Source: Tannerellaceae bacterium (GTDB lineage Bacteria > Bacteroidota > Bacteroidia > Bacteroidales > Tannerellaceae). From it: 64,000 bases of DNA. A program made the translations under genes and the position numbers. Below are positions 4,680 through 41,600 of the stretch, one piece after another. The notes beneath the pieces were generated by a model. That model was not told where the DNA came from. It saw only the letters and a list, made by a program, of their open reading frames with translations, and searched no databases. The stretch is taken from the NCBI GenBank assembly GCA_031257015.1, contig JAIRPK010000040.1, forward strand, positions 1 to 64,000, written 5' to 3'. Position 1 is the stretch's first letter. Each line of letters opens with the position of its first letter.

Positions 4680-6290
4680 GTGATGAAACGGATTTTTATG
4701 ATGATTAAACAGAACAAACAAATGCCTTTTACATGTATAACGGCGTACAGGACTGAATTGAACATGCAACAGAGCAAAATAAAAACTGCTATTGTAAAGA
4801 CAAAGACTATCGGACGGACGGGGATTTTGTTTAAACTTCTCCCCTTTACCTTTATCCTGACATTGCTCCAGTTTTCTTCAGCTTTCGCCCAACAATTGCG
4901 ACTATCGCTTGAGAAAACTGTTGAAATAGCAGCGGACAGCTCACTCCAGGCTTTTAGCGCGAGGAACGTTTATCAGGCCAGCTACTGGGAGTTCCAGTCT
5001 TTCAGAGCAGCCAGACTGCCTTCGCTAACATTGCAAACGACACCTTTACAATACTACCGCGACATCACCCGGAGATACAACTCGGAAACTAACATGGATG
5101 TGTATCGAACACAACAATCTCTTTATTCTACGGCGAATATGTCGATTCGACAAAACCTTGACCTGACCGGAGGTACTTTCTTCATTGACACAGACTTGGG
5201 ATACATCAGAAACTTCGGCGACCAGGTCTATTCGCAGTTCACAAGCGTGCCGATTCGAGTCGGATACCGGCAGGAACTGTTCGGATTCAACAGCTTCAAG
5301 TGGGAAAAACGTATAGAACCGCTTAAATACAATAAGGCGCTCAGAAAATTTATTTATGACAGGGAAGAAATCTCCGAAAAGTCGGCAGAATACTTCTTCG
5401 ACCTCGCAATGGCGCAGACGGAATACGAAATGGCAACCGAAAACGTGGCATCCGCCGATACGCTTTACCGAATCGGAGAGGAGAGACAAAAAATCGCAGC
5501 AATTTCACAAGCCGACCTCCTCACTCTCAAGCTCGACGCCGTAAATGCCAAGAACACCATGAAAAATGCGGAAATAAATCTCAAGCGAGCAGCCTTCGCT
5601 TTTGCATCTTATCTCAACCTCGACAAGGAGACAGACGTCAGAATCATACTCCCCGAACGGCCGGCAGAGATGGAAATAGCTCTTGACGAAGCAATTGCAC
5701 ACGCAAAAGACAATAATCCGGAGCTGCTCGGCAACAAACAGGAAATTTTACAGGGGGAACGCGAAGTTGAACGGACAGCGAAAAGCTCAGTCTTCGACGC
5801 TTCCTTCTCCATCAGCGTAGGCTTCAACCAGGTCGCGAACAGCCTGGCAGACGTTTATCGAAAACCGTTGCAGCAGGATGTAATTTCGGTAACTTTCTCA
5901 ATTCCACTGGTCGATTGGGGCGTGCGGAAGGGAAAATTGAATATGGCACGCAATAATTTGAATGTGACGCGCATCTCCGTCAGCCAAAAAGAGCTTTCGC
6001 TCGAACAGAATGTAATAATGACAGTGAACGATTTCAATATTCAGCAAAATCTTATACAATCCGCCGAGGAAGCTCTATCGCTCGCCAACATGGCCTACGA
6101 TAATACACGCGAAAGGTTCATTATCGGCAAGGCGGACATCAACAGTCTCACGCTCTCACTCAACCGGCAAAAGGAAGCGAGGAAAAATTTCATCTCCGCA
6201 CTCAAAAATTATTGGCTTAGCTTTTACAAAATACGCAAACTTACGCTCTACGATTTCGCATTGAGGCGGGAGTTAAGTATAAACAATTAA
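4680..6290 (+). CDS. TolC-family outer-membrane efflux channel
   Basis: A 536-residue reading; the mature protein has two repeated outer-membrane efflux (OEP) domains with long coiled-coil segments. A hydrophobic signal (ILFKLLPFTFILTLLQFSSA) ends with AFA before QQL, so cleavage is likely near residue 70. This unusually late signal suggests the true start is downstream, most simply the ATG at 4764 (residue 29). It begins 6 bp after the RND pump and completes a tripartite adaptor-pump-channel set. Its TAA stop overlaps the ATG of the following repeat frame (TAATG). Confidence 0.9.
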   Translation: MMKRIFMMIKQNKQMPFTCITAYRTELNMQQSKIKTAIVKTKTIGRTGILFKLLPFTFILTLLQFSSAFAQQLRLSLEKTVEIAADSSLQAFSARNVYQASYWEFQSFRAARLPSLTLQTTPLQYYRDITRRYNSETNMDVYRTQQSLYSTANMSIRQNLDLTGGTFFIDTDLGYIRNFGDQVYSQFTSVPIRVGYRQELFGFNSFKWEKRIEPLKYNKALRKFIYDREEISEKSAEYFFDLAMAQTEYEMATENVASADTLYRIGEERQKIAAISQADLLTLKLDAVNAKNTMKNAEINLKRAAFAFASYLNLDKETDVRIILPERPAEMEIALDEAIAHAKDNNPELLGNKQEILQGEREVERTAKSSVFDASFSISVGFNQVANSLADVYRKPLQQDVISVTFSIPLVDWGVRKGKLNMARNNLNVTRISVSQKELSLEQNVIMTVNDFNIQQNLIQSAEEALSLANMAYDNTRERFIIGKADINSLTLSLNRQKEARKNFISALKNYWLSFYKIRKLTLYDFALRRELSINN

Positions 6291-6880
6291 TGCTTATGAA
6301 TACAGACTACATCAACGTGCCACTATCAACAATTCCATTCAGCGAATCAACATTTAAACATGGCGAACAGCCAAAAAAACATGTTAAATTGTCAATTAAA
6401 CATGTTTTTTCGCCGCCGCAACATGTATTCCTCGCGATTGTACATGTTTTCTTGCCTCTACAACATGTTCTCTTGGCGATTGTACATGTTTTTTTACCAA
6501 TTCAACATGTATTCCTCACGATTGTACATGTTTTTTTACCGATACAACATGTTTTTCTCACGATTGTACATGTTTTGCTCCCGATTAACCATGATATACT
6601 ACCAGCTAAACATGTACAATTGCCAAAAAAACATGTTGTAGAGACAAAAAAACATGTTCAATCGCCAAGAATACATGTTGCAGAGCCAGGAAAACATGTA
6701 CAATCGCGAGGAATACATGTTGTAGCGGTAAAAAAACATGTACAAGCATCAAAAAAACATGTTTATTTTTCAGCTAAACATGTTAAATGCCTAATTGGAC
6801 AGGTGAAATTGTCGATTCGACATATTCAATCGTCAATTTATCATATTGCCTGTCAAGCTTTTCCCTTAATCTATACATAA
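6290..6880 (+). CDS. Possible heptapeptide-repeat protein read across array B
   Basis: A 196-codon frame with ATG overlapping the tolC-type stop (TAATG) and ending 19 bp before the next RND gene, so it sits like an operon member. It is almost entirely a degenerate seven-residue repeat with KHV, QHV, VHV or IHV at each ACATGT site and four variable residues between. There is no signal peptide or recognisable domain. An overlapping +1 frame is open over 93 codons. Because the DNA repeat unit is 21 bp and lacks stop codons, an open frame may be a by-product of the array. I keep it as a low-confidence gene. Confidence 0.3.
   Translation: MLMNTDYINVPLSTIPFSESTFKHGEQPKKHVKLSIKHVFSPPQHVFLAIVHVFLPLQHVLLAIVHVFLPIQHVFLTIVHVFLPIQHVFLTIVHVLLPINHDILPAKHVQLPKKHVVETKKHVQSPRIHVAEPGKHVQSRGIHVVAVKKHVQASKKHVYFSAKHVKCLIGQVKLSIRHIQSSIYHIACQAFPLIYT
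6358..6846. repeat. Array B: 24 ACATGT-type sites exactly 21 bp apart, inverted about the centre
   Basis: ACATGT or a close variant begins at 6358, 6379, 6400 and every 21 bp through 6841 without a phase slip: 24 sites, 19 of them perfect hexamers, with degenerate versions at 6358, 6589, 6799, 6820 and 6841. The 15-bp intervals have diverged. The left and right halves are inverted relative to each other about position 6570: 6421-6447 is the exact reverse complement of 6694-6720, and neighbouring pairs match with a few differences. The array lies between the channel gene and the second RND gene. Confidence 0.95.
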
Positions 6881-6899: not shown

Positions 6900-9800
6900 A
6901 TGAAGATCTCCTCGTTTTCAATCATCCTCATATTCGTTTGCATCACCCTGTCAGGATTGGCATTTTTGCCGATTTTGCCGGTGAAACTCGCACCTTCGCA
7001 AACGCTGCCGCAGATAAATGTCAGATTTAACATGCCCGGCAGCGCCTCCCGCGTGGTCGAAATGGAAGTAAGCTCGAAATTGGAAGCAATGTTCAGCAGA
7101 ATTAAGGGCGTTGAAAATATCACCTCCACTTCGGGCAATGGATGGGGAAATATCAACATTCGTTTTGATAAATATGTAAACGTAGATGCCGCCCGTTTTG
7201 AGGTATCAGCTGTCATACGCCAGATTTGGCCACATTTGCCGGCGGAGACGAATTACCCGGTCATTTCGTTGAGCCGTTCCGATGAAAATGCAGACAGGCC
7301 ATTCCTTAGTTATACGGTCAATGCACCTGCAAATCCGGTCGTAATACGCAGGTTTGCCGAAAATATCATACAGCAAAGGCTTTCGCAAATTGAAGGAGTG
7401 AACCGCATCGACGTGCAGGGGGCAATGCCGATGGAATGGAGGCTCGAATATGATTACAAGCAACTGGAAACGCTGAATTTGAGCGTCAGCGACATTCAGG
7501 ATGCTATCGCAGGACATCTGAACCGGGAGTTCTTCGGTATGGCTTACGGAGATAGCCAGTCGGGCGACAGGCAGTGGATAAGAATTTCCCTTTCTCCCAA
7601 TGAGGATGCGGAATCAAACTTTAATCCGGCTGATATTTACGTGAAAAATGTTGACGGACGACTGATTTCGCTGGACAAAATCGTATCCGTTGAGCGCCTT
7701 GAACAAAACGCGCACAGTTATTACCGCATAAACGGACTAAATTCAATATATCTCTCAATCACCGCCGAGGAAAATGCCAACCAGCTAAAGCTTAGCCGGG
7801 AGATTAAAGAGACGCTGAACGAGATGAAACGCTTGTCCTTGTTTCCCGCAGGTTACGAAATGCACCTTAGCTATGACGCAACGGAATATATCGACGAGGA
7901 GTTGGATAAAGTTTATTTCCGTTCGGGATTAACGATGGTAATTCTTTTATTATTCGTGTTGATTATTTATCGAAACGCGAAATATTTGTTGTTAATTTCC
8001 GCGTCTTTATTCATGAATATAGCGATTGCTCTTATCTTTTATTATTTCGGAGGACTGGAGATTCAACTGTATTCGCTGGCAGGGATTACAATCTCGCTTA
8101 CGCTGGTTATTGATAACACAATCGTAATGTCCGACCAGCTTATAAGGCGGGGAAATAAAAAGGCCTTTTCGGCAATTCTTGCGGCAACGATTACAACGAT
8201 TGCGTCACTGATAATTATCTTTTTCATGGATGAAAAAATACGGTTGAACCTGCAGGATTTTGCATTGGTTATAATCATTAATCTGGCAACATCGTTGTTT
8301 ATTGCATTGTTTCTTGTGCCGGCTTTAATTGAGAAATTAAAAATTGGGGCAAAAAGGAAATTCAGGCGGCGACGGAGGTTTTTTTTAGACCGTATTTATG
8401 TGGCTTTTTGCCGATTCATGTGGAGATTTCGTGTTGCTGCCTGCATCTTGCTTCTACTCGTTTTCGGCCTTCCTGTTTTCATGATTCCTGATAAACTGGA
8501 GGGCGAAGGACGTTGGCACGACGTGTTTAACAAGACGCTAGGCTCGCAATATTACAAGGGGAAAATCAAGCCGCATGTCGATACATGGATGGGGGGAACG
8601 CTGCGCCTTTTTGCACAGAAAGTGTTTGAGGGGAGTTACTTCTCCGACCGCTCGCAGACGTCTGTTTACGTGACGGCAACACTGCCGAACGGGGCTACCG
8701 TGACGCACATGAACAATTTAATCCAGCGCATGGAAACGTACATCAGCCAGTTCACTGAAGTGCGGCAATTTCAGACTAATATTCAGAGCGCAAGACGTGC
8801 CAGCATCTATATTACATTTACGAAAGAGGGCGAGCGCACGGGTTTTCCATACGTTCTTAAATCTAAATTAATAAGCAAATCTATTGAGCTTGGAGGAGGC
8901 TCGTGGACGGTCAGTGGTTTAGGTGACGGATTCAGTAATGAAATTCGCGAATTTGCCGGAAGCTATCAGGTTCTTCTTTATGGCTATAATTATGACGAAC
9001 TGAGCGAATGGACGGAGCGTTTCAAGCAAAGGCTTTTGGAAAATAGGAGGATAAAGGAAGTGATAATCGCCTCGGAGTTCTCATATTTCAAGGACGATTA
9101 TCAGGAGTTTGTGTTTAAGCTTAACCGCGAGCGTCTGGCGCAGGAAAATATCCGACCAATCGAGCTTTTTGCAAGCCTTAAACCGACATTCGGACAGGAT
9201 ATTTCCGCTGGTATGTTGGCGGGCGAGTTCGGCATGGAAAGAATCGTTCTTCATTCCCGACAATCGAAGGAATATGACATTTGGAGTCTGGAGAATATTC
9301 CGGGAAAAACAGGTGTAAACACTGAGTATAAACTTGCGGAACTTGCCGGGCTGGAAAAGATGCAGGCTCCACAGAATATCGTTAAGGAAAATCAACAATA
9401 TCGTCTTTGTTTGCAGTTTGAATACATCGGTGCGGGGGCGCAAGGACGAAAGCTTTTGGAACGAAACATCAAGGAGTTTAAAACGCTCCTGCCGATGGGA
9501 TATACAATCGAGAGCAGGGAACGATATTGGGCTTTCGGGAAGGACGGTGGGAAGCAATATGCGTTGTTGCTGCTGATTTTTGTTATCATTTACTTTATGT
9601 GCAGTATATTATTCAATTCGTTAAGGCAGCCGTTTTCTGTAATTTTTGTCATTCCTGTGTCGTTCATTGGTATATTCCTGACCTTTTATTTGTTTAAGCT
9701 GAATTTTGACCAGGGGGGCTTTGCATCGTTCATTCTGCTCTGCGGATTGTCGGTCAACGCCAATATTTATATTATTAATGAGTATAACAGCATCCTGCAC

Positions 9801-10040
9801 AAACGGAAAATTTCCCGGCTAAGGGCTTATATTATGGCTTGGAATGCTAAGATTCGGCCTATTTTCCTGACAATCGTTTCGACCGTCCTGGGTTTTATCC
9901 CGTTCATGATTGGAGAAACAAAGGAGGCTTTTTGGTTTCCGCTGGCGGCTGGGACAATTGGGGGATTAATTGTTTCGTTTTTTGGGATTTTTTGTTTTCT
10001 GCCGCTGTTTATGGGGGTAGCGAAGTGGAGAAAGGATTGA
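6900..10040 (+). CDS. Second RND-family efflux pump permease
   Basis: A 1046-residue RND protein, clearly diverged from the pump at 1587. TM1 is at about 5-27, followed by the porter domain and a TM block at about 340-475 containing SLTLVIDNTIVMSD, where Asp405 is the candidate proton-relay residue followed by Asn. Further TM segments lie at about 497-517 and 885-1040. It follows array B after the TolC-type gene, so the operon holds one adaptor, one channel and two pumps. This recalls two-pump systems such as MdtABC, where two RND proteins share an adaptor; a shared complex here is inference. No second adaptor follows. Confidence 0.92.
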   Translation: MKISSFSIILIFVCITLSGLAFLPILPVKLAPSQTLPQINVRFNMPGSASRVVEMEVSSKLEAMFSRIKGVENITSTSGNGWGNINIRFDKYVNVDAARFEVSAVIRQIWPHLPAETNYPVISLSRSDENADRPFLSYTVNAPANPVVIRRFAENIIQQRLSQIEGVNRIDVQGAMPMEWRLEYDYKQLETLNLSVSDIQDAIAGHLNREFFGMAYGDSQSGDRQWIRISLSPNEDAESNFNPADIYVKNVDGRLISLDKIVSVERLEQNAHSYYRINGLNSIYLSITAEENANQLKLSREIKETLNEMKRLSLFPAGYEMHLSYDATEYIDEELDKVYFRSGLTMVILLLFVLIIYRNAKYLLLISASLFMNIAIALIFYYFGGLEIQLYSLAGITISLTLVIDNTIVMSDQLIRRGNKKAFSAILAATITTIASLIIIFFMDEKIRLNLQDFALVIIINLATSLFIALFLVPALIEKLKIGAKRKFRRRRRFFLDRIYVAFCRFMWRFRVAACILLLLVFGLPVFMIPDKLEGEGRWHDVFNKTLGSQYYKGKIKPHVDTWMGGTLRLFAQKVFEGSYFSDRSQTSVYVTATLPNGATVTHMNNLIQRMETYISQFTEVRQFQTNIQSARRASIYITFTKEGERTGFPYVLKSKLISKSIELGGGSWTVSGLGDGFSNEIREFAGSYQVLLYGYNYDELSEWTERFKQRLLENRRIKEVIIASEFSYFKDDYQEFVFKLNRERLAQENIRPIELFASLKPTFGQDISAGMLAGEFGMERIVLHSRQSKEYDIWSLENIPGKTGVNTEYKLAELAGLEKMQAPQNIVKENQQYRLCLQFEYIGAGAQGRKLLERNIKEFKTLLPMGYTIESRERYWAFGKDGGKQYALLLLIFVIIYFMCSILFNSLRQPFSVIFVIPVSFIGIFLTFYLFKLNFDQGGFASFILLCGLSVNANIYIINEYNSILHKRKISRLRAYIMAWNAKIRPIFLTIVSTVLGFIPFMIGETKEAFWFPLAAGTIGGLIVSFFGIFCFLPLFMGVAKWRKD

Positions 10041-16511: not shown

Positions 16512-16937
16512 CCGCGGAAATGTCAAACATCTCCGTGGATATATCCATAACCGTCGAAAAAGAAGCAACTGCCTCCGAGGGGGAAACAATTCTCTGGGCA
16601 GGAATATCCAAAATCATTGCGAAGGAAGCAACTGCCTTCGCGGAAAGGACTAATATTTTCATGAAAATGTTGAACTGCACTGCGGAAATCGCAGAGGTAT
16701 TCGCGGAAGAAACAACTGGCTCTACGGAGAAATCGAAAAATTTCACGGAAATTCCGAATTTCTCCATGGAAATTTTGGACATTTCCGTGGAAAAGTCGAA
16801 AATCTCCACGGAAATTCCGAAAAATCCCGCGGAAAAACTGCACATTTCCGTGGAAATTCCGGAAATCTCCATGGAAAAATTGAAAATTTCCGCGGAGGAA
16901 TCGGATTTTTCCGCGGGGAAAACGAAAATCTCCATGG
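16512..16937. repeat. Array C: CCNNGG palindromes at 21-bp steps
   Basis: Twenty-one positions at exact 21-bp steps from 16512 to 16932. The last nine (16764-16932) are all perfect CCNNGG cores (CCATGG, CCGTGG, CCACGG, CCGCGG), usually flanked as TTTCC..GGAAA. The earlier ones are decayed versions (TCGCGG, CTGCGG, TCATGA and similar), and three (16554, 16596, 16617) are barely recognisable. Long frames are open on both strands here: 16499-17071 plus, 190 codons, ending in a hydrophobic segment; and 16489-17025 minus. Neither has a recognisable domain, so I do not call a gene. Confidence 0.93.
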
Positions 16938-17101
16938 AATTTTGGGGCATTGAGATGCTTATTTTATTGATTATCATGCAGTTGGCGGTTATTACTATGG
17001 GGAAGGCCGTTAAGGCTGCAGGCACGTTCTTTAGTGTCGCAGCGATGGGCTTTAGGGCGGTCGGGAAATAATAATTGCCCGCTTTTGACGTTATTTAGGA
17101 A

Positions 17102-21756: not shown

Positions 21757-21990
21757 ACAGACGGCCTGAAAATTTGATTTCGACAGAAGCACATTGAGAG
21801 AGAACTGCCCAGGGGGAGAATTTCCTGGTTTACAGGACATTGCCTCGGCAGGAATATTGCCGGCTTTTGACAGGAAACGTGAAAAATAAGTGTGCGTCAC
21901 CAGGGAAATTGTTTAAATCGAGCGTTTGCCGATCTGCTTCCTTCTGCCGGAACAAGCTGAGGCAGGCGGCAGACAAATTAAACAGAGGTG

Positions 21991-22127
21991 TTTGATTTTT
22001 CAAACAATATTGTTTGAATTATTCGGCACCGCTGTTTGAATTATTAAGCAGCGGTGTTTAATTTTTCAAACACCGCTGCTTGAATTATTCGGCAACGCTG
22101 TTTGAAAAATCAAGCAGCGGTGTTTAA
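21991..22127. repeat. Array D: GTTTGA/TCAAAC repeats at about 22-bp steps with strong hairpins
   Basis: GTTTGA, GTTTAA or GCTTGA starts at 21991, 22013, 22034, 22056, 22078, 22100 and 22122, a 21-22 bp step. 22001-22018 is a perfect 18-bp palindrome (TCAAAC plus AATATT plus GTTTGA). 22046-22059 (AAGCAGCGGTGTTT) is the exact reverse complement of 22069-22082, giving a 14-bp stem. The array sits between the 3' ends of folA and the ABC-F gene. No T-tract follows the stem, so it is not a standard terminator. Confidence 0.85.
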
Positions 22128-22259
22128 CTTTTTAAACAATATCTTTCCGTAAATGAATCGCGGCGCTTGATGGTTTTTCTACCGCTTTTGTAGAGTGTTA
22201 ACAGATGCAGGCTTACCGGCTTACCCTTTTTTCGCTTATTCTGAACTCGGAGGAAACGG

Positions 22260-25361: not shown

Positions 25362-26819
25362 ATCAAAAACTCTAAAAAAAATATAATATTTACAGGAATA
25401 ACATATTTTGCTTTTGCAAAATATGGGGGAATGATTGTATCCTTGTGCATCACTATGATATTATCAAGAATATTAACACCATCTGATTTTGCTATAATTG
25501 TTCTGGCAAATATTGTTATCAATTTCTTTTCAGTAGTTAGTACAGTTGGAATAGGTCCAGCAATTATTCAAAATAAAACTCTTTCAGATAAAAATATTGA
25601 AGATATTTTCAGTTTTACATTATACTTAGCATTAATATTATCGGCAATTTATATCTTTTTTATTCCTCTCTTAGTCGAATTTTATGGTCGAAATAGGCTT
25701 CTGGAAAATATATTTTATCTGTTATCCTTTAATGTCTTTTTTGCTCTCGTAACAATAGTGCCTAATGCATTAATATTAAAACAAAAGAAGTTCCAGTTTC
25801 TTGCTCTACGTACTATTTTTATTCATATTATTACGGGGGTAATTTCGATTCTTACGGCATTGAAAGGATTAGGGATATATGCACTTTTAATTACTCCAAT
25901 ATTTGGCAGTATTTTACTGTTTACAACCAGCTATATATATGTCCCAGTAAAAATCAGATGTGATTTTTCAATTGTGTCCATAAAAAAAATATTATCATTC
26001 TCATTTTATCAGATATTATTTAATATAGTATATATACTTTATAGAGCCATTGATAAGATTTTAATAGGACGTTATTTTAGCATGGATATTTTGGGATATT
26101 ATGAAAAATCTTATCGTTTAATGATGCTACCTCTTGAAAATGTATCTAATGTTATAAACCCTGTTTTACATCCGATATTAAGTGATTATCAAAATGAAAA
26201 AAAAATCATTCTTAACGCCTATTCTAAAATGATAACACTCCTTGCATATTTAGGCTTTTCTTTGTCTGTTTTTATTTTTTTTACCTCAAGTGAATTAATT
26301 GTTTTAATCTTTGGAGAACAATGGCTCCCATCAGTACCTGTATTTAAAATATTATCATTAAGTATTGGTCCTCAAATAATTCAATCTCCGATAGGGGCTG
26401 TTTTTCAAGCTATTAACCAAGTGAAAAGCCTATTTTATGCATCTATTATTGTAATGATAACGACCATTTTAGCTGTAATAATAGGAATCTATCAACATTC
26501 AGTAGAAAAATTAGCACTATATTTAGTGCTCACAATGTTTGTCGCAAATTTTATATATAATATTTACTTGTGCCGACATTTAAAATGTAAACTTTTATTT
26601 ATATTTACATTATTATTCAAACCATTATTCTATACAATTGTATTGGCTAGTATTTTTTATATTTATTCGATTTTATGTCCTATCAAAGCTATTTTCTTTT
26701 CTTTTTCAATAAAAGGGTTAATATTTATGTTATACATGCTTATTTGTGTTTATGCCGGGTGTTTTGATGAACTTCCAGCAGCAAAACGGATAAGCGTTTT
26801 TATAAAAAGAATATGTTGA
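25362..26819 (+). CDS. Polysaccharide flippase (Wzx-type, MOP superfamily), probable AUC start
   Basis: A multispanning membrane protein, about 12 hydrophobic segments, that would move undecaprenyl-linked repeat units across the inner membrane. The first ATG in frame is 25431 (462 residues), but the 23 codons before it (NSKKNIIFTGITYFAFAKYG) read like the normal first amphipathic/TM part of this family. A strong AGGAGG at 25351-25356 lies 5 nt upstream of ATC 25362, so translation probably starts at this rare AUC codon (485 residues). It is the first gene of the locus, very AT-rich, and overlaps the next gene by 7 bp. Confidence 0.8.
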   Translation: MKNSKKNIIFTGITYFAFAKYGGMIVSLCITMILSRILTPSDFAIIVLANIVINFFSVVSTVGIGPAIIQNKTLSDKNIEDIFSFTLYLALILSAIYIFFIPLLVEFYGRNRLLENIFYLLSFNVFFALVTIVPNALILKQKKFQFLALRTIFIHIITGVISILTALKGLGIYALLITPIFGSILLFTTSYIYVPVKIRCDFSIVSIKKILSFSFYQILFNIVYILYRAIDKILIGRYFSMDILGYYEKSYRLMMLPLENVSNVINPVLHPILSDYQNEKKIILNAYSKMITLLAYLGFSLSVFIFFTSSELIVLIFGEQWLPSVPVFKILSLSIGPQIIQSPIGAVFQAINQVKSLFYASIIVMITTILAVIIGIYQHSVEKLALYLVLTMFVANFIYNIYLCRHLKCKLLFIFTLLFKPLFYTIVLASIFYIYSILCPIKAIFFSFSIKGLIFMLYMLICVYAGCFDELPAAKRISVFIKRIC

Positions 26820-27925
26820 AAAAAAACATCCTCAAACTTATTAGAATAATTAGTGATTTTTTTCAAGCTGAATTGAATTACAGGACTAAACCAAGAGTTC
26901 TACAATTACCAATCACCAGTAAATGTAATTCGAGATGTGTTACTTGCAATGTATGGAAAAACAAAACTCCAATAGATATTGAACCTGATAAATTAAAAGA
27001 TATTTTAGGAGATCCATACTTTAATGAAGTAACAACTGTCGGAATAAATGGTGGAGAACCGACACTTCATCTTCGTTTTGAAGATGTAGTTAACGCTGTT
27101 TTGTCTTTGCCCAAGATAAAAAACATACATTTAATTTCCAATGCTATTTTAACAAAACGTTTATTATCTTTAATGAAATCATGTAAACAATTATGTTCTG
27201 CAAGTGGGTGTGTTTTCAATTATACAATATCAATAGACGGTATTAGTCAGACGCATAATACTGTAAGAGGAGTAAGTACAGCGTTCAATAAAACCATTGA
27301 AAGTCTTGAAGAGATAATGAAGGACAAAAACTCTTATTGCGACAATATAGATATCGGATGTACTATTTCTAAGTACAATGTTTATAATTTAGTTGAATTT
27401 GAAACATATTTTTCCAACTACGAAATAAATATTAATTACCATCTAGCTGTTCCGAATAAACGAATTGGAACTTTTTATAATGCTGACTATTCGGTTCTCT
27501 CAGATAAAAGAGCCAAACTTATGGCAGAAGAATTTTTTCTTGTCAAATATAAAGAAGCAAATCAAATAAAGAATAAAATCAAATATTTCATGAATTTTTA
27601 TTATCTTAATAAAGGAGGAAAAGGTCGTTTAGCCACATGCCATTATTTGCATCAAGATATTACAATAGATGAAAAATTAGATGTATTTTTATGTGCAACC
27701 GCAAGTGATAAAATAGGAAATTTGACTGTAAATACATTTAATTCACTTATCAAGAGTGGTAAAGTTAATGAAATAGAAAAAAATATATCAGAACTATGTG
27801 ATACATGTATTCATTATTGTGATTTTCCGTCCTTAAAAGGATTATTCATTATGTTTAAATACTTCATAGCGAATAGAATCAGATACATGTTTTTAATTAA
27901 AAATTTATCAAAATGGTTAGAATAG
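26813..27925 (+). CDS. Radical SAM protein of the polysaccharide locus
   Basis: A 370-residue protein with the radical-SAM cluster motif CNSRCVTC, giving Cys38, Cys42 and Cys45 for a 4Fe-4S cluster, and GINGGEPTLH as the glycine-rich SAM loop. The C-terminal part has further cysteines (FLCATAS, CDTCIHYC) consistent with a SPASM/Twitch-like auxiliary cluster. Its ATG lies inside the end of the flippase gene. Such enzymes in surface-glycan loci may modify a sugar, but the substrate is unknown. Base composition is as AT-rich as its neighbours. Confidence 0.8.
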   Translation: MLKKNILKLIRIISDFFQAELNYRTKPRVLQLPITSKCNSRCVTCNVWKNKTPIDIEPDKLKDILGDPYFNEVTTVGINGGEPTLHLRFEDVVNAVLSLPKIKNIHLISNAILTKRLLSLMKSCKQLCSASGCVFNYTISIDGISQTHNTVRGVSTAFNKTIESLEEIMKDKNSYCDNIDIGCTISKYNVYNLVEFETYFSNYEININYHLAVPNKRIGTFYNADYSVLSDKRAKLMAEEFFLVKYKEANQIKNKIKYFMNFYYLNKGGKGRLATCHYLHQDITIDEKLDVFLCATASDKIGNLTVNTFNSLIKSGKVNEIEKNISELCDTCIHYCDFPSLKGLFIMFKYFIANRIRYMFLIKNLSKWLE

Positions 27926-29064
27926 TAATTATCGGTTGGTATGGTACAGAAACAATAGGAGATAGGGCTATCCTTGCAGGAATAATAAGTATAATTGCTA
28001 ATATATATATGGATTTTGAAATAAAATTAGGAAGTTTATATCCCACTTTATCAGAAAGAACAATATTGGAAGATTATATTTTTTTATGTACTTCAGGATC
28101 TAAAAAAAATATATCTATATCTATTTTTAATAGTTCTAAAGTGGCCGAATTGGATTCGGCAATAAAATGGTCGGATATACTTGTCATGGGAGGTGGGCCT
28201 TTTATGGATAGCATTGTAGAGTTATATATGATTGATTATGCATTTAAAAGAGCTAAAAAGAAAAATAAAAAAACGGCTATTCTCGGTTGTGGCATAAGTT
28301 CTTTATGGCATTCCAAATTAATTAAACCAGCATTATCAGTAATATCAAACAGTGATATTACTATTTTCAGAGATAATAAATCATTAACCACTTACAACAA
28401 ATTTATAAAAAAAGACATATTCCAATGTGTGGCGAGCATAGACCCTGCTATATTTGCAGCTGACATTTTTAATAAACGTCATTTTAAAGCAGGAGAAAAA
28501 TCGAAAATTATTTCTGTAAATTTCAGAGAAATTTTGGATGATACATATATCGGAGTTTCCACATCTCAAATGTTCCCTATTTTATCACATTTATTAATTA
28601 GACTGTCAGAGCAAGAATCAACTCGCGAAATACATCTAATTCCAATGCATACATTTGGAATTGGCGGCGACGATAGATATTTACTAAATAAGTTATCTAA
28701 TGCAATTAAAAAGAAGAATATTCATGTGCAAAATAATCCTTTGTCATTAGAAGAAACAATGAAGATATATTCGGATTCTTTTTTTTGTATTGGGATGAGA
28801 TTTCATTCAATATTGTTGCAAACAGTACTGAATGGAAAAAATTATATAGTTGATTACACTAATCCGAAAAGTGGAAAAATAGTTAACTTATTACATCAAC
28901 TTAACGCGTCTGGTATATATAAATCCAGATATTATTCTTTGTTGCAACCAGGCGAACAAATATTTGACATATCAAATGATATAGTTTGTTATTCTGTACC
29001 AGAGTTTCAAATTAATTCTTTTCGCAAAATATATTTGGATAAGTTGAACGAACTACATATTTAA
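27913..29064 (+). CDS. Polysaccharide pyruvyl transferase family protein
   Basis: A 383-residue protein starting VRIVIIGWYGTETIGDRAIL, the typical N-terminal nucleotide/PEP-region pattern of the CsaB/WcaK family. It also has MGGGPFMDS near residue 95 and a C-terminal GMRFHSILLQ, another family hallmark. The family adds pyruvate ketals from phosphoenolpyruvate to sugars in surface polymers, giving negative charge. It overlaps the radical SAM gene by 13 bp. Confidence 0.82.
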   Translation: MVRIVIIGWYGTETIGDRAILAGIISIIANIYMDFEIKLGSLYPTLSERTILEDYIFLCTSGSKKNISISIFNSSKVAELDSAIKWSDILVMGGGPFMDSIVELYMIDYAFKRAKKKNKKTAILGCGISSLWHSKLIKPALSVISNSDITIFRDNKSLTTYNKFIKKDIFQCVASIDPAIFAADIFNKRHFKAGEKSKIISVNFREILDDTYIGVSTSQMFPILSHLLIRLSEQESTREIHLIPMHTFGIGGDDRYLLNKLSNAIKKKNIHVQNNPLSLEETMKIYSDSFFCIGMRFHSILLQTVLNGKNYIVDYTNPKSGKIVNLLHQLNASGIYKSRYYSLLQPGEQIFDISNDIVCYSVPEFQINSFRKIYLDKLNELHI

Positions 29065-29073
29065 AGGAAAAAC

Positions 29074-30300
29074 ATGAAAATTGTCCACATAAGTAATAGT
29101 GATATTGAGGGAGGTGCTGCTCGTGCTGCTTGGAGATTACACCAAGAAATGATGAAATTTGGTATTGAAACTTATATGTTTGTTTTAAAGCAAACAATAA
29201 AAGAAAATACTATTCATACCGTTTCTCGTTTTGATAAATATATACTCTCTGTGTTGAGGACTTCTATAAACACTATATTTTCTCGTTTTATGAATAAATC
29301 CGAATGGATTTTCTCTAACGATTTATGGGGTATTAATATTAGCAAATTTAGACTTGTAAAAGCAGCTGATACAATAATAATCCATTGGGTTAATGGTGGG
29401 TTTATGACTATTAAAAACATAGAACAATTATTAAAACTAAAAAAGAAGACCATTTTTGTACTACATGATATGTGGGCTTTAACCGGAGGCTGCCATTACA
29501 GTTTAGAATGTAATTCCTATCGTGAACAGTCATGTAAGCATTGCTCACAAGTATCTTCAACTTTAAGGAAGTTCATAATTTCGTATTTTTACAGTAAAAA
29601 ATCAACTGTATTTCATAAGTATAATAATTATTCAGTTGTTGCCCCTAGCGTATGGCTGAAATATTGTGCCATATCTACGCCATTTTTTGCAAAAGGCAGT
29701 GTCCATAGAATAGCAAATCCAATAGACAGAACTATATTCAAAAAAATAGATAAAAACATAACTAGGAAAATATTAAATATTTCCAAAGATGTGAAACTTC
29801 TATTATTTGCAGCTGATACTGGGACAAAAAATCCGTATAAAGGCTATAAATTTTTAGAAGAAGCATTATTAAATTTAAATTCAATGAATAAAAGTAAATT
29901 TGAATTTGAACTCTTAATTGTAGGTATGGCTAAAAATGAAGAAATAGAAAAAATATCGCCATATAAAATACACTTTACAGGACGACTTTATGACGAATAT
30001 TCTTTATCATTAGTCTATAATGCCTCAGATGTATTTGTAACTCCTTCATTAGCCGATAATTTACCTAGCACAGTGCTTGAAAGTATTGCATGTGGCACTC
30101 CAGCTGTCGGTTTTGATATCGGGGGGATACCCGATATGATAGTTCACAAAAAAAATGGTTATTTAGCTCGTTATAAAGACGTTAATGATTTACTTGAAGG
30201 GATATTATATTGTTGTGAAAATCTTACAAATGTATCATCATCTAGCAATTTTGAGACAGATTTGATTATAAAACAATATTTAAGTCTCATCTTAAATTGA
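29074..30300 (+). CDS. Glycosyltransferase, GT4-like
   Basis: A 408-residue GT-B protein. The start (KIVHISNSDIEGGAARAAWR) has the glycine-rich acceptor loop of colanic-acid-type GT4 enzymes. The middle has LHDMWALTGGCHY. The C-terminal donor domain has ASDVFVTPSLADNLPSTVLE and CGTPAVGFDIGG, the EX7E-like nucleotide-sugar binding region. A cysteine-rich patch (CNSYREQSCKHC) is typical of this subfamily. Sugar donor unknown. Confidence 0.85.
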   Translation: MKIVHISNSDIEGGAARAAWRLHQEMMKFGIETYMFVLKQTIKENTIHTVSRFDKYILSVLRTSINTIFSRFMNKSEWIFSNDLWGINISKFRLVKAADTIIIHWVNGGFMTIKNIEQLLKLKKKTIFVLHDMWALTGGCHYSLECNSYREQSCKHCSQVSSTLRKFIISYFYSKKSTVFHKYNNYSVVAPSVWLKYCAISTPFFAKGSVHRIANPIDRTIFKKIDKNITRKILNISKDVKLLLFAADTGTKNPYKGYKFLEEALLNLNSMNKSKFEFELLIVGMAKNEEIEKISPYKIHFTGRLYDEYSLSLVYNASDVFVTPSLADNLPSTVLESIACGTPAVGFDIGGIPDMIVHKKNGYLARYKDVNDLLEGILYCCENLTNVSSSSNFETDLIIKQYLSLILN

Positions 30301-30347
30301 ATATCAATCAATTGCTGATTTGGAGCCATAAAAATACATTACAAAAA

Positions 30348-31115
30348 ATGATTAAACATAGAATGAATCCACCTCTTATTAGTATTATAACAGCTGTTTA
30401 TAATGGCGTCTCCACGTTGGAAGCAACAATATTGAGTGTAATCAATCAAACATACAAAAACATTGAATATATTATCATTGATGGAGGTTCAAGCGATGGC
30501 ACGATCAATATTATTGAAAAATATGAAAATAAAATCACTTATTGGGTAAGCGAGCCTGATAAAGGAATTTATGATGCTTGGAATAAAGGTTTAAAAATTG
30601 CATCTGGAGAATGGATCTGTTTTGTAGGTTCAGATGATATCTTATATCCTTATCATGCGAAAACATATATTGATTATATCCGATCCTTAGACCAACGCAG
30701 AGATTATATATATGCGAAAGTTGATATTGTTGATATTCATGGTAATTATATTAGATATAATATAGGAAAACCGTATGAATGGAATTCTTTTAAAAAAAGA
30801 ATGCAAAACATACATGTTGGTTCAATGCACTCTAGTGAATATTTTAGACAATATGGTTTCTTTGATACTCAATATAAAATTATAGGAGATTATGAAATTT
30901 TATTACGGGCAAAAAATAAATTAAAAGTGGGATTTATCAATAAAACTACTCTTAAAATGTCTTTAGGAGGAATAAGTTCTAACATAAAGACGCTATTAAA
31001 TGAAAGTGAAATGGCAAAAATTAAAACAGCGGGAAGAAATAAATTTATTTGTTTTATAGAAAAATATTGGTATTATTTGAGAATATTTTTAATGAAATTA
31101 GTATATGGATATTAA
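30348..31115 (+). CDS. Glycosyltransferase family 2
   Basis: A GT-A enzyme with SIITAVYNGVSTLEATILS, then IDGGSSDGT and the metal-binding FVGSDDILY. About 255 residues from the chosen ATG at 30348. A TTG at 30297 overlapping the upstream stop (TTGA) would add 17 residues and is a real alternative for a translationally coupled gene; ATG 30363 is a third choice. The pattern YWVSEPDKGIYDAWNKG is characteristic of WcaE/WcaA-like transferases. Confidence 0.85.
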   Translation: MIKHRMNPPLISIITAVYNGVSTLEATILSVINQTYKNIEYIIIDGGSSDGTINIIEKYENKITYWVSEPDKGIYDAWNKGLKIASGEWICFVGSDDILYPYHAKTYIDYIRSLDQRRDYIYAKVDIVDIHGNYIRYNIGKPYEWNSFKKRMQNIHVGSMHSSEYFRQYGFFDTQYKIIGDYEILLRAKNKLKVGFINKTTLKMSLGGISSNIKTLLNESEMAKIKTAGRNKFICFIEKYWYYLRIFLMKLVYGY

Positions 31116-31189
31116 AGAATATAATAAAAATACTTTAGCTAACTTTTTACTTTTATAGCTTTATAAAATATTAGGAAGGTACAACACAA

Positions 31190-32401
31190 ATGGAAATAAC
31201 TTTTTCTGGATATTTTTTTTTGATTGTTTATTTTATTGCTATATTTTTCCCTGTAAAATATTTATTTGCAATTACTCTATATTCTTCAATATTTGGAGCA
31301 ATGGCGGTTTTTAATTTAAATTATAAAGGTATAACGCCCTTTATAGTGGGTCTTATTTTTTTTAATTTAAAATCAATTTTCCTACCTACCAAGTTGAGGC
31401 ATAATAACTTTCCAAATAGCTATCTAGTATGTTTATTCTTGTTATATTCAATTTTATATTCAATTGTTATTCCTATTATAGGCTCTGAAAATAGACAATT
31501 AAGCCTAAAAAATTATACTCAACTTGTATATATAATTATTTATACAATAACACTTTATTCCGCTTATAAAATACAGAATAAAGTCGATGCTTCTTTTTTA
31601 ATAAAACTTTTTAAGTTTATGATAATATCAGTTGTGGCTATTGGATTATGGGAGTTTTTTGCTAAATCAACTAATATGATATCATTTCCGAATTCATTTT
31701 TTTTTAATAATAAAGGCTACTCATTATTATATGATCAGGAGCTTGCTATAGGAGGACAGAAGCGTTTAAATTCCACATTTATAGAACCATCGTATGCGGG
31801 CTCTTTTTTGGCTGCTTCATTTTGTATGGTTGTGATACTAGGAATTAAAAAAAACATATTATTCCTATTGTTAATACTCACAGCTTTAGTATTTAATTTA
31901 TCAGCAACAGGAATGTTGTCTACTATTTTTGGGGTACTGTTTTGTATGTTTATAAATATAAAGAATTGGAAACAAATATTAGCATTAAATATTTTATTAC
32001 TGCTTACTCTTTATATAGTATATAAGACGGATTATTTTACTTTTTTTATCGAAATCCTTTTAAGAAAAAAGGACAGTCTATCTGGAGAATCACGGTTAGA
32101 AAGCACTGTCCGTGCAATTAACTTATTTAAGGAGAGTGGTGGTATAGGCTTGGGACTGGGAGTATATAGAAGCGCAAGCTTTATTAGTGATATAATAGTT
32201 AGTTATGGCATTATTGGAACCTTTTTATTTTGTAAACTGTATTATACTTTTATAAGGACTATCGTCAGCAGGAATACTTGGTTGTTTGTTTTTGCTATTG
32301 TTTTATTATGTGCTCAATGTATTGCAATTCCAGACATTTCCAATCAAATTATGTGGATGTGGATATTCATGTCTGTATCTTTAAATCATTATAATAAATA
32401 A
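31190..32401 (+). CDS. O-antigen/capsule polymerase-like membrane protein (Wzy type)
   Basis: A 403-residue protein with about ten hydrophobic segments and a larger loop around residues 160-205 (ending RLNSTFIEPSYAG). The SRLESTVRAINLF/GLGLGVYRSAS region near 300-330 resembles the conserved region of O-antigen ligase/polymerase proteins. With the flippase at 25362 and transferase at 35583 it would complete a Wzx/Wzy pathway. The exact family could also be a ligase. Confidence 0.75.
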   Translation: MEITFSGYFFLIVYFIAIFFPVKYLFAITLYSSIFGAMAVFNLNYKGITPFIVGLIFFNLKSIFLPTKLRHNNFPNSYLVCLFLLYSILYSIVIPIIGSENRQLSLKNYTQLVYIIIYTITLYSAYKIQNKVDASFLIKLFKFMIISVVAIGLWEFFAKSTNMISFPNSFFFNNKGYSLLYDQELAIGGQKRLNSTFIEPSYAGSFLAASFCMVVILGIKKNILFLLLILTALVFNLSATGMLSTIFGVLFCMFINIKNWKQILALNILLLLTLYIVYKTDYFTFFIEILLRKKDSLSGESRLESTVRAINLFKESGGIGLGLGVYRSASFISDIIVSYGIIGTFLFCKLYYTFIRTIVSRNTWLFVFAIVLLCAQCIAIPDISNQIMWMWIFMSVSLNHYNK

Positions 32402-32408
32402 ATATTAA

Positions 32409-33470
32409 ATGAAAATATTTATAAATTCTCGTTTTCTCACTCAGCCTATCACTGGCGTTCAACGCTTTGCAATTGAAATTTCCAAGCAATTGAAAATATT
32501 GTATGGGGATAGAATAGAATTTATCTCTCCTTATAATGTAATGCATCATCGGTTAGCAAAGGAATTTAATGTGAAAACTATTGGAATTTTAACTAATCAC
32601 TTATGGGAACAAATAGATTTGCCTAGATATTTAAAAAAGCAAGGTAGTCCAATATTGTTGAATCTGGCAAATACTGCACCGTTTACCTACAAAAATAAAT
32701 TAACTGCTATACATGATATTGCATTCAAAATTTATCCACAAACATATACTAAATCATTTTTATCTTACTATAATTTATTATTCTCTAAGATACTTGAAAC
32801 ATCGGAACATATAATTACTGTTAGTCATTTTTCTAAAGAAGAGATTATGCGTTTTTATAATATTAGAAAGGATAAAATTTCAGTTGTTTATAATGCAGTT
32901 AATGCTAATTTTAAGCAGATACATAATGATGATTTACAAAAAAGAAACTATTTTCTAATCGTTTCTTCATTGAATTATAGGAAAAATCTAATAAGAATAT
33001 TAGAGGCATTTGAAAATATTTCTGCCAAGGACAAAAAGCTAAAACTATATTTGATAGGAGATCTAAATATAAAAAGTTTCAAGAAAATAGATATAAGTAA
33101 ATACATATATAATAAAAAAATTGAAATTTTAGGTCGTGTTAATGACGCCGAATTAGTTGAATATTACTCTAATGCTCGCGGATTTATTTATCCTTCATTA
33201 TATGAAGGCTTTGGCATTCCTCCATTGGAAGCGCAAGCTTGTAATTGCCCTGTTTTGCTATCTAATGGTTGCTGTTTTCCCGAAGTTTTTGGAGATTCTG
33301 CATTGTATTGCGATCCATTCTCAATTAATTCAATACAAATTGGTATGCAACAACTATTAGATAAAGAGATACGAGATATTCTAATAAAAAAAGGAGACGT
33401 TAACACCAAACGTTTTTCATGGGAAATTAGTGCTAAGAAAATAAGTGAAATATTAGAAAAATATATGTGA
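32409..33470 (+). CDS. Glycosyltransferase, GT4 family
   Basis: A 353-residue GT-B protein starting KIFINSRFLTQPITGVQRFA, a common opening for mannosyl/rhamnosyl-type GT4 enzymes. It has AIHDIAF, then HIITVSHFSKEEI, and in the donor domain LIVSSLNYRKN, ARGFIYPSLYEGFGIPPLEA and CNCPVLLSN. It begins 8 bp after the polymerase gene. Confidence 0.88.
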   Translation: MKIFINSRFLTQPITGVQRFAIEISKQLKILYGDRIEFISPYNVMHHRLAKEFNVKTIGILTNHLWEQIDLPRYLKKQGSPILLNLANTAPFTYKNKLTAIHDIAFKIYPQTYTKSFLSYYNLLFSKILETSEHIITVSHFSKEEIMRFYNIRKDKISVVYNAVNANFKQIHNDDLQKRNYFLIVSSLNYRKNLIRILEAFENISAKDKKLKLYLIGDLNIKSFKKIDISKYIYNKKIEILGRVNDAELVEYYSNARGFIYPSLYEGFGIPPLEAQACNCPVLLSNGCCFPEVFGDSALYCDPFSINSIQIGMQQLLDKEIRDILIKKGDVNTKRFSWEISAKKISEILEKYM

Positions 33471-33493
33471 CTAATTATATATAATTAATCATC

Positions 33494-34615
33494 ATGAAAA
33501 TCGCATTAATCCATGACTGGCTCACTGAATATGGCGGCGGAGAAAAAGTCTTTGCTGTAATCTGTTCTTTATACCCTGATGCAGATGTTTTTACCCTTAC
33601 CTACAATGTAAAATCATTAAGAAAATTAAAGATAGAAAACAAAAATATAACACCTTCCTTTATTCAATCATTACCATTTGGCAAAACAAAATATCGTTAT
33701 TATTTGCCGTTTTTCACAAAAGCTATCGAAAGTTTTGATTTAACTAAGTATGATTTAATTATTTCTTCTTCTTCATGTGTTGCAAAGGGCGTTCTTACTC
33801 ATATTAATCAAATACATATTTGCTATTGTCATTCTCCGGTCAGATATGCATGGGATTTATATTTTCAATATTTGAATCTGTCTGTATATAATAAATTCAA
33901 ACCATTGATGCTTTATATCAAGCACGTTCTACATAAGTTAAGATTATGGGATGTAATATCGTCTAATAGAGTCGATTATTTTATCTGCAATAGCAATTAT
34001 ATTCAAAAACGTATTTGGAAAGTATATCGGAGAGTCTCACAAACAATTTATCCTCCTATATCAACACATGAATTTACATGCGTTTCTTCTAAAGACGATT
34101 ATTATTTTGTTTGTTCCAGATTAGTTTCATATAAAAAAATTGATTTAATTGTCAAAGCATTTAGAGAAATGTCTGATAAAAAATTAATCGTTATTGGCAA
34201 TGGTCCGGAGAAAAAGACATTGTTAAAGCTTAAAACATCAAATATTGAAATTTTGGGATTTCAACCATTTCATATTTTAAAGGCATATATGGAGAAAGCG
34301 AAAGCCTTTGTTTTTGCTGCCGATGAGGATTTTGGAATGGTTTGCATAGAAGCCCAAGCCTGTGGAACTCCAGTAATTGCGTTCGGAAAAGGAGGCTCTC
34401 TGGAAACAGTAAAAGAGAATTTGACCGGAGTTTTTTTCTATCAACAGACAGCAGAAGCCATTATTGAAAGTGTGCATAAATTTGAAACTTTAAAATTTGA
34501 TTATAATATAATCTGCAAACATGCGGAACAATTTTCCGAAGAGAGATTTAAAAGAGAGTTTAAAGATTTTATCGAAGGCAAGGTGAAAAAGAAATATGGA
34601 ACAACAACGCTATAA
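33494..34615 (+). CDS. Glycosyltransferase, GT4 family
   Basis: A 373-residue GT-B protein with KIALIHDWLTEYGGGEKVF at the start, CYCHSPVRYAWDLY near 115 and FVCSRLVSYKKIDLIVKAF for the donor domain, followed by AKAFVFAADEDFGMVCIEA and CGTPVIAFGKGG. Related enzymes are annotated as mannosyltransferases; the donor is not provable here. Its end overlaps the acyltransferase start by 20 bp. Confidence 0.88.
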   Translation: MKIALIHDWLTEYGGGEKVFAVICSLYPDADVFTLTYNVKSLRKLKIENKNITPSFIQSLPFGKTKYRYYLPFFTKAIESFDLTKYDLIISSSSCVAKGVLTHINQIHICYCHSPVRYAWDLYFQYLNLSVYNKFKPLMLYIKHVLHKLRLWDVISSNRVDYFICNSNYIQKRIWKVYRRVSQTIYPPISTHEFTCVSSKDDYYFVCSRLVSYKKIDLIVKAFREMSDKKLIVIGNGPEKKTLLKLKTSNIEILGFQPFHILKAYMEKAKAFVFAADEDFGMVCIEAQACGTPVIAFGKGGSLETVKENLTGVFFYQQTAEAIIESVHKFETLKFDYNIICKHAEQFSEERFKREFKDFIEGKVKKKYGTTTL

Positions 34616-35555
34616 ATGGATTGATATAGCTAAAGGTATTGGCATTATATTAGTAGTTTATGGGCATGTTATGCGAGGATTAAATAGTGCATCATTAATA
34701 GACAAAGATTTCTTTATTTATAGTGATCTAATAGTTTATAGTTTTCACATGCCTTTATTTTTCTTCATATCAGGTTTATTTTTCATGAAAAGTATCGAAA
34801 GATATAAACTTAAACAATTTCTCGTCGAGAAATGCAAAACCTTATTATATCCTTATACTATCTATTCATTATTTCAGATGGGCGTTATGGTATTATTATC
34901 TAATTATACAAATGGAGAAGAAGATATAAATTCTCTTTATACATGTTTATTGGTTCCCAAAGCACAATTTTGGTTTTTGTTTGCTCTTTTTTTTATTAAT
35001 TTGCTAAATGCCCTTATGTTGTCTATTAATAAAAAAAGATGCTTGTGGCTGTCTATAATCATTGGGTTTATATATTATCTATTTCCTGTTGACTTATTTA
35101 TGTTCTCTGAAACATTTAAATATTTAATATTTTTCAACATGGGAATTTTAGCTAAATATGTTTTAGAGATAAAATTAACTTTTAAGCATAAATATTTCAT
35201 TGTGCTATGTACTTTTATTCTTGTTTTGGAATATTTTTACATCTTCAAAATATCAGAAAATCCCTTTCTTCCATTTATCATTTCTATGGTAGGAACGATC
35301 ATGGTTTTATATCTAGCTCTGTCTAGGTTGCAAAACAATTTATTGTTATTCCTAATAGGAAAACACTCTTTAGAAATATATCTTTTACATATTTTATTTT
35401 TAGCAGGATGCAGAATATTATTAAATAATATTTTCAACATACAAAATTCATTAATTCATATTGCTCTAGGAACATTATGCGGACTATTTTTTCCATTATT
35501 CATCTCAGTATTCATAAATAAAAAATATTCAACCTATTTATTTCGTATTCAATAA
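34596..35555 (+). CDS. Membrane acyltransferase (acyltransferase-3 family)
   Basis: A 319-residue polytopic protein, about ten TM segments. KWIDIAKGIGIILVVYGHV carries the family's N-terminal signature with the conserved His, and FHMPLFFFISGLFF follows. Such proteins O-acetylate or succinylate surface sugars at the inner membrane. The position in the locus suggests decoration of the exported polymer. Confidence 0.88.
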   Translation: MEQQRYKWIDIAKGIGIILVVYGHVMRGLNSASLIDKDFFIYSDLIVYSFHMPLFFFISGLFFMKSIERYKLKQFLVEKCKTLLYPYTIYSLFQMGVMVLLSNYTNGEEDINSLYTCLLVPKAQFWFLFALFFINLLNALMLSINKKRCLWLSIIIGFIYYLFPVDLFMFSETFKYLIFFNMGILAKYVLEIKLTFKHKYFIVLCTFILVLEYFYIFKISENPFLPFIISMVGTIMVLYLALSRLQNNLLLFLIGKHSLEIYLLHILFLAGCRILLNNIFNIQNSLIHIALGTLCGLFFPLFISVFINKKYSTYLFRIQ

Positions 35556-35582
35556 ATAAATTTACACTTTAAAATTATTTAG

Positions 35583-36242
35583 ATGATGCTACTCACCACA
35601 CAAAAACCTTTGTCTAAAGAACAGATTATATTAATAATTCCATTAAACAAAAAAAGCAATATCGTTATAAAACGAAGTTTTGATATTATATTCTCCTTAA
35701 CATTTTTAATACTGTTTTTTCCTTTAGTTTATTTATTAGTTGGACTGGCTATAAAATTGGACTCGCACGGACCTATCCTCTTTATCCAGAAACGGAAAGG
35801 ATTAAATGGACAGTATTTTAGTTGCTACAAGTTTAGAAGTATGTATAAAAATCTAGCCTGCAAACAGGCTAGCAAAAAAGATCCGCGAATTACGCGAATA
35901 GGGAAATTAATCCGTAAAACAAATATAGATGAGTTACCACAGTTCATAAATGTTCTTTCAGGAAATATGTCCTTAGTTGGCCCTCGCCCTCATCCACAAT
36001 GGTTAAACGAGCAAGTTTCTGATAAAATCCCAAACTATAATATGCGGAGCCTCATCAAACCCGGCATCACCGGCTTGGCACAAATCAGCGGATTTCGCGG
36101 AGAGACATCGACTCTGGACAAAATGGAAGGCCGCGTCGAACGCGACCTCTGGTACATTGAAAACTGGTCAATGTGGCTTGACATAAAAATAATTTGGCGT
36201 ACCGTGATCCTCTTGTTTAAAGGAGATAAAAACGCTTACTGA
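35583..36242 (+). CDS. Initiating sugar-phosphate transferase (WcaJ/WbaP-type)
   Basis: A 219-residue polyisoprenyl-phosphate sugar-1-phosphate transferase. [20 protein letters not shown] is the membrane-embedded re-entrant helix, followed by [29 protein letters not shown] and [15 protein letters not shown]. It would load the first sugar onto undecaprenyl phosphate. The 5' two-thirds is as AT-rich as the locus, whereas from about 36045 the bases and codons look like the GC-richer chromosome, suggesting an exchange junction inside the gene. Confidence 0.93.
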
Positions 36243-41300: not shown

Positions 41301-41590
41301 GATCAAAACCTTCGCGGAAACCCGGAAAATGGTTTTGTCATAGATCAAAACCATTTTCTGAAACCGAAAAATGGTCTTGTCATAGATCAAAACCATTTCC
41401 GGAAACCGAAAAACGGTTTTGTCGCAGATCAATATCATTCCGGGAACCAGGAAAATGGTTTTGTCGCAGATCAATATCATTCCCGGAATCCGGAAAATGG
41501 TCTTGTCGCAGATCAAAACCATTTTCTGAACCCGGAAAACGGTTTTGTCACAGATCATGACCATTTTCTGAACCTGAATGATGGTTTTGT
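41301..41590. repeat. Array E: seven units of 42 bp with alternating inverted motifs
   Basis: GATCA begins at 41301, 41343, 41385, 41427, 41469, 41511 and 41553, exactly 42 bp apart. Midway, close to 21 bp after each, sits a CCGG or CCGA centre. Around GATC the flanks GGTTTTG and CAAAACC are inverted, and around CCGG the flanks CCATTTTC and GAAAATGG are inverted, so the array is a chain of alternating dyads. A minus-strand frame (41256-41600, 114 codons) reads a 14-residue repeat (CDKTIF..MVLI) with no known domain; I do not call it a gene. Confidence 0.9.
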
Positions 41591-41600
41591 CATAAAACAT

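Follow-up and report, generated by a model that had tools for sequence, protein, structure and literature searches.

Tandem arrays of many unrelated sequences share a step of about 21 bp or its double, and are mostly self-complementary, in a Tannerellaceae genome

Minisatellites in bacteria tend to be regarded as stand-alone oddities or as markers for typing. Tandem sites spaced at about two helical turns are familiar from plasmid iterons and from ParR/parC centromere arrays. In Porphyromonas gingivalis, BrickBuilt is a 23-nt minisatellite carried in a MITE with a leader, a tail and terminal inverted repeats, which is present at 19 loci and makes up 0.44% of the genome (PMC4596501). It is intergenic, is predicted to form long stem-loops, varies in length between strains and consists of repeats without spacers, and segments of it show bidirectional promoter activity (PMC4596501). 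The same species also has 41-nt 464/PgRS repeats and 22-nt repeats, as cited in that paper (PMC4596501). The arrays described here resemble BrickBuilt by description in that they are imperfect, spacerless tandem repeats, intergenic, present at many loci, capable of long stem-loops and found in a member of the Bacteroidales. With the 464/PgRS and 22-nt repeats they have in common periods of 41 and 22 nt, a MITE-like or tandem organization and the same order, again by description; the flanks of 464/PgRS, unlike those of our arrays, are themselves repetitive (PMC4596501). Whereas BrickBuilt is a single family, the host genome has at least 11 families with periods from 21 to 46 bp, covering ~3% of sampled bases; some have the 22-23- or 41-nt period, and the others have steps of 21 or 42-46 bp. 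The arrays represent a repeat type already known from Bacteroidales, in a form with many families present at once, and their closest known elements are the 22-, 23- and 41-nt repeats of P. gingivalis (BrickBuilt, 464/PgRS). A first-pass annotation of the sequence had known of no described system with this pattern, a statement that these tandem repeats contradict. Literature searches on such a pattern in Bacteroidales or termite symbionts yielded nothing beyond P. gingivalis.

The window, by which we mean the whole stretch of 64 kb that was analysed, is the first 64 kb of its contig in a draft genome of 3.12 Mb, 73 contigs and ~93% completeness. By SecA comparison the nearest named genomes were MAGs labelled Tannerellaceae or Tannerella (71-78%), and the host is likely a termite-gut member of the Bacteroidales, judging from the sample code of a related MAG in a termite-gut paper (PMC11707648). 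The first-pass annotation had proposed six arrays in the window, each a short dyad repeated at one common step, and TRF recovered all six at or near the same positions:

1-274, no strand assigned: array at the contig start, period 21 (TRF), clustering with the CACCGGTG / TCGCGTGCGC group
6358-6846, no strand assigned: ACATGT array with a 21-bp step, between the OEP and RND genes; TRF bounds 6395-6763, period 21/42
16512-16939, no strand assigned: GGAAATTCC-type array with a 21-bp step, higher order 42/63 and dyads every 10.5 bp; TRF bounds 16726-16939, period 21/42/63, with weaker units from ~16600
21975-22142, no strand assigned: GTTTGA..TCAAAC array with a 22-bp step, higher order 66 and dyads every 11 bp
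41301-41592, no strand assigned: array of period 42/126 (TRF) with the imperfect inverted repeat AAAACCATTTyCGG...CCGGAAAATGGTTTT
56231-56550, no strand assigned: array of period 43 downstream of secA, with the strong palindrome GTCCCACC-GGTGGGAC; TRF bounds 56286-56550

To these we added 20 further stretches of the host genome, for a sample of 414 kb in which 5 stretches were picked for holding ACATGT arrays and 15 (253 kb) were blind, all of the latter coming from contig starts. The genome-wide autocorrelation that the first-pass annotation had called for was run on this 414-kb sample, where it gave 71 hits against 5 in block-shuffled DNA, and the step class recurred. TRF found 53 arrays of at least 90 bp; the period was ~21-23 or ~41-46 bp in 47 of them and between 24 and 40 bp in none. 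The proposal of one step length of ~21 bp or its double therefore holds as a class and not as one exact length, the steps being 21, 22, 23 or 41-46 bp. Had arrays been absent elsewhere in the genome, or had the lag peaks varied widely between loci, the idea of a common process would have been in difficulty; arrays are present elsewhere and the peaks do not vary widely. Array density was 11.4 per 100 kb in the full sample and 11.9 per 100 kb in the blind stretches (30 arrays in 253 kb), from which we extrapolate an estimated ~300-370 arrays in the whole genome. Arrays comprise 5 to 42 modules (median 10) and account for 3.1% of the bases sampled.

The arrays are real, non-random and genome-wide. 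Chance periodicity or an assembly artefact might be suspected, given that these are MAG contigs and that arrays occupy several of the contig ends (window 1, L032:1, L036 end, L039:1, L044:1, L046:1 and L050:77). The excess over shuffled DNA, together with the same class of arrays in independent assemblies of other species, of P. canoris and of Bacteroides, already refutes chance, units within arrays diverge by up to ~30%, and we regard this explanation as extremely improbable. Arrays at contig ends probably break the assembly, and their real lengths may be larger.

Node spacing is strict. Of the 77 steps between ACATGT nodes in seven family-A arrays, 74 measured 21 bp and the other 3 measured 42 bp. 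Outside arrays, tandem pairs of 18-60 bp with two copies were missing from the host sample, for which reason a general slippage spectrum was rejected, and solo units were not above control (6, against 4 in the reversed control). Since neither two-copy pairs nor solo units are seen, arrays appear either to emerge as ready-made blocks or to grow fast. An analysis by rank showed array edges to be decayed over 3-4 units, as expected if array interiors are homogenised. We also observed, within 1.5 kb, a 22-bp array bordered on its two sides by arrays with a 198-bp period (L048:9761-10252 and L048:10714-11195).

Sequence clustering of 46 arrays gave 15 clusters, 11 of which recur at 2-9 loci, so that the core motifs are not locus-specific as had been supposed and single families extend over many loci as in BrickBuilt. 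Families with a 21-bp period include ACATGT, CACCGGTG/TCGCGTGCGC and GATTCTCCGAGAATC; others have periods of 22/44 (GTTTGAaTTATTCaaAC), 23 (TTAGTGGGATGyCGTCACTAACG), 41 (TTTGCAtatATGCAAA) and 43 bp (CCCACCATGGGGG). Among the arrays of the window, 16512-16939 falls in the same cluster as L035:14575 and 41301-41592 clusters with L044:1, while the family of 21975-22142 is found also at L037:3242, L038:2054, L039:1-914 and L045:14505, and that of 56231-56550 at L031:4102, L031:9948, L035:7145 and L039:9256. Some arrays are composites: in L038:9622 the sequence changes after the first 11 units and a further 11 units follow, both sets being of 21 bp and in register. A CRISPR array was rejected as an identity for these elements, as the units abut and vary along their full length, without identical repeats or unique spacers.

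Dispersal over many loci raises the question of mobility. Like REP/BIME elements with their RAYT, the arrays are built of short palindromic units, are intergenic and dispersed, and come as several families per genome; unlike them, they are tandem at a fixed ~21-bp step and have no solo units. No Y1_Tnp/RAYT gene (PF01797) was found in the ~93% complete host genome, and RAYT/REP transposition was rejected on this absence. The arrays might instead be cargo of MITE-like mobile elements that are mobilised by a transposase acting in trans, a scheme put forward for BrickBuilt. The leader and tail of BrickBuilt and the inverted repeats at its termini (PMC4596501) would fit, as would the many-locus dispersal and an insertion into a compact operon described below. 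Conserved flanks comparable to the BrickBuilt leader and tail were found in the 43-bp family, where up to 150 bp of flank is common to three loci. The remaining families have no flanks in common beyond array-like edges, orientation flips occur inside arrays, and the transposase search, which covered the Y1_Tnp/RAYT family only, was negative. On balance we consider cargo of this kind unlikely.

We examined the symmetry of 46 host arrays with column permutation within each array as the null. Twenty-eight were palindromic at p<0.01. In the other 18, the array at 1-274 among them (p 0.48), the dyad was not significant, so that not every array is built of short dyads. Dyads recur every 10.5, 11 or 11.5 bp in 21-, 22- and 23-bp arrays, and in the 41- and 43-bp families there is mostly a single strong dyad to each period. 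The 41-46-bp units may be strict pairs of ~21-bp modules, but the +-+- pattern at half-period steps is given by any dyad array and is by itself no proof of alternating modules. In a folding test (15 permutations per array, RNA parameters), the mean self-folding z was -5.6, and 36 of 46 arrays had z < -2 against their column-permuted copies, a long stem-loop potential like that of BrickBuilt. Folding is therefore a more general property of the arrays than are unit dyads. Two arrays of one ACATGT subfamily have inverted halves (77-78%), while their units show modest palindromy or none; their self-complementarity therefore belongs to the array as a whole.

The arrays might be selected as platforms for one or more dimeric DNA-binding proteins, sitting on dyads about two helical turns apart and building a filament or nucleoid domain by analogy with iterons and ParR/parC. 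The 10.5-, 11- and 11.5-bp dyad spacing, the 74 of 77 ACATGT steps of exactly 21 bp, the single register of composite arrays and the intergenic placement would all agree with such platforms. However, the 18 arrays with a non-significant dyad do not, nor do the two ACATGT arrays that are self-complementary mainly through inverted halves, and helical phase is lost at 22- and 23-bp steps: at 10.5 bp per turn these drift by ~34 and ~69 degrees per unit. The same drift and the same 18 arrays set aside, as a strict rule, the first-pass suggestion that all dyads lie on one DNA face. At least 11 families would call for 11 proteins or for one blind to sequence, there is hardly any compensatory change, and the neighbours are unrelated genes. 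In contrast to iterons and ParR/parC, moreover, the arrays are chromosomal, number by estimate at least 300 and have many sequences, and no cognate gene was found. Selected protein platforms would thus be a possible but doubtful explanation.

Mismatches within the arms allow a role as RNA to be weighed. Transcribed arrays could form hairpins with a role in terminating, stabilising or punctuating the mRNAs of operons, and both the very stable predicted folds and the bidirectional promoter activity of BrickBuilt segments (PMC4596501) are in keeping with this. Compensatory transversions, however, made up 41 of 98 (42%) against 33% expected, which is barely above chance, and related units are not independent. 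The asymmetry of arm mismatches (G.T vs A.C) tracked local GC skew (rho 0.47, p 0.001, 46 arrays), as neutral replication-strand mutation would give; G-U-compatible mismatches followed this skew and not the direction of the genes (5 sense, 12 antisense, p 0.14). Selection on mRNA hairpins was rejected on these results, which fit DNA mutation, show no sign of RNA-level selection and are compatible with protein binding. The arrays might even act as a gauge of replication-strand mutation. In a simple ORF-based gene call, which placed two arrays inside doubtful ORFs, the flanking genes were co-directional at 21 arrays, divergent at 9 and convergent at 4; the corresponding numbers for all gene pairs were 189, 36 and 33. 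With no bias to gene ends, a terminator role was rejected; a regulon or operator cluster was rejected because unrelated genes lie beside the ACATGT, 43-bp and 23-bp families. The only Rfam match was tRNA, and no array family was matched. Function as RNA appears quite improbable. At L032:16594-17379, a gene for an HU-type DNA-binding protein (PF14848/DUF4469) directly adjoins a 23-bp array.

The ACATGT array of the window lies inside an efflux operon, in the following setting:

4680-6290, + strand: OEP gene, outer membrane efflux protein (PF02321), left neighbour of the array
6290-6880, + strand: ORF of 196 codons that covers the array and is not considered a gene
6900-10040, + strand: gene for an RND efflux pump, ACR_tran (PF00873), to the right of the array

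This array is one long inverted repeat, with a forward half to ~6598 followed by an inverted half, and its arms are 78% complementary over 176 bp. Because the right half is the reverse complement of the left, the array has a predicted self-fold of -181 kcal/mol (z -19.7 vs column-permuted copies). Inverted halves (77%) likewise make up the sister array L042:9093. That 21 bp is also seven codons, as the first-pass annotation had remarked, and that an ORF spans 6290-6880 could be taken to mean that the arrays encode proteins of seven-residue repeats. But an open frame follows from the 21-bp step itself, short periodic DNA is expected to be open in two or more frames, as several arrays are, and the array at 21991-22142 has 3-4 stops in every frame. 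Periods of 22, 23, 41 and 43 bp are not multiples of three, so the sister arrays with these steps cannot hold a frame or code; the seven-codon reading falls, coding repeats were rejected and repeat proteins are scarcely credible.

The OEP and RND genes overlap or nearly abut in 10 of 10 same-genus genomes that have the pair, and are 609 bp apart in the host genome with the array in between. The array is therefore a derived insertion. Insertion into a compact operon is demonstrated at this one site only: in the other empty-site comparisons, gene order around RNase HII and the neighbour of secA, DUF6261, are not conserved among relatives. No phage or plasmid match was found for the 6358 array, leaving a horizontal carrier unsupported. 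Other arrays, of 21, 23 and 41 bp, lie directly downstream of RND in 3 of 11 relatives, and arrays follow RNase HII in 2 of 15 relatives as well as in the host. Species of the genus bear arrays of differing period and sequence at these same spots (L012-L022, L233, L234), which gives a hint of repeated placement.

Across taxa, the step class persisted while sequences changed. In other species of the genus (438 kb), all 18 arrays were in the class and none had a period of 24-40 bp, although their sequences differ from those of the host. In-class arrays were 12 of 20 and 4 of 10 in the other Bacteroidales samples and 1 of 4 in other Bacteroidota. Density per 100 kb fell from 11.4 in the host to 4.1 in the genus, 0.7-0.8 in other Bacteroidales and 0.26 in other Bacteroidota; as the controls outside Bacteroidales were small (380 kb), "order-wide" describes a trend and not a survey. 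The ACATGT family, searched in the genus, and the 23-bp family, searched in the order, were essentially private to the host genome. Porphyromonas canoris and Bacteroides ndongoniae have 22-bp arrays, some of them with dyads. In P. canoris, two long 22-bp arrays (L248:4815-5097 and L248:9500-9854) lie near 63-bp repeats that look like protein-coding repeats.

The surprising part is the conserved step with unrelated sequences: one step length common to many unrelated families across the order, with a steep density gradient that peaks in one genus. The shared architecture and the common process or constraint proposed at the outset are borne out, as the step class recurs genome-wide, in the genus with different sequences, and thinly in named Bacteroides and Porphyromonas; this points to one shared process that makes or keeps the arrays. 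A Bacteroidales machine or constraint might make or keep ~21-bp modules whatever their sequence and raise new self-complementary arrays in each lineage, with the 22-, 23- and 41-nt repeats of P. gingivalis as the same product, a proposal that we hold only tentatively.

We prefer to read the arrays as self-complementary minisatellites dispersed between genes, in which a repeat type present at low density in Bacteroidales has expanded to an extreme degree, and which are spread and kept by foldback copying. We give description and mechanism jointly a probability of about 0.5; the description alone is much firmer and the enzyme step much weaker. Arrays would reach new sites as ready-made multi-module blocks, and slippage or unequal exchange would lengthen and homogenise them there. 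Orientation flips may arise through single-strand foldback, by hairpin-primed copying or template switching, and the ~21-bp module, at about two helical turns, may be the unit preferred by the foldback or copying machine. Spread by foldback would explain both the self-complementarity of most arrays and the missing conserved ends of most. The arrays would then be mainly a by-product of DNA metabolism and not regulatory elements.

Several results sit poorly with foldback copying. From slippage alone one would expect neither that unrelated sequences share a fixed ~21-bp module nor that the interval of 24-40 bp is empty. The composite array at L038 keeps its 21-bp register, as would be equally expected of a bound protein or of some other machine that keeps length, and the 43-bp members share flank at three loci as a mobile element would. 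SbcD attacks hairpins. It is present in the host, so loss of SbcCD was rejected as the cause of palindrome survival.

A conserved product, the ~21-bp and mostly self-complementary module, that could be traced to an enzyme makes the origin of such repeats testable, and repeats of this kind are available in culture in P. gingivalis. At a few percent of sampled sequence, and with insertion inside an operon, the arrays have effects on assembly, on annotation through false ORFs, and possibly on expression. Elsewhere in the window, an AT-rich island at 25431-36242 (27-33% GC vs ~46%) holds ten + strand genes, among them a flippase, glycosyl transferases, a pyruvyl transferase, a Wzy-like ligase, an acyltransferase and a sugar transferase, and is a surface polysaccharide locus that was likely acquired.
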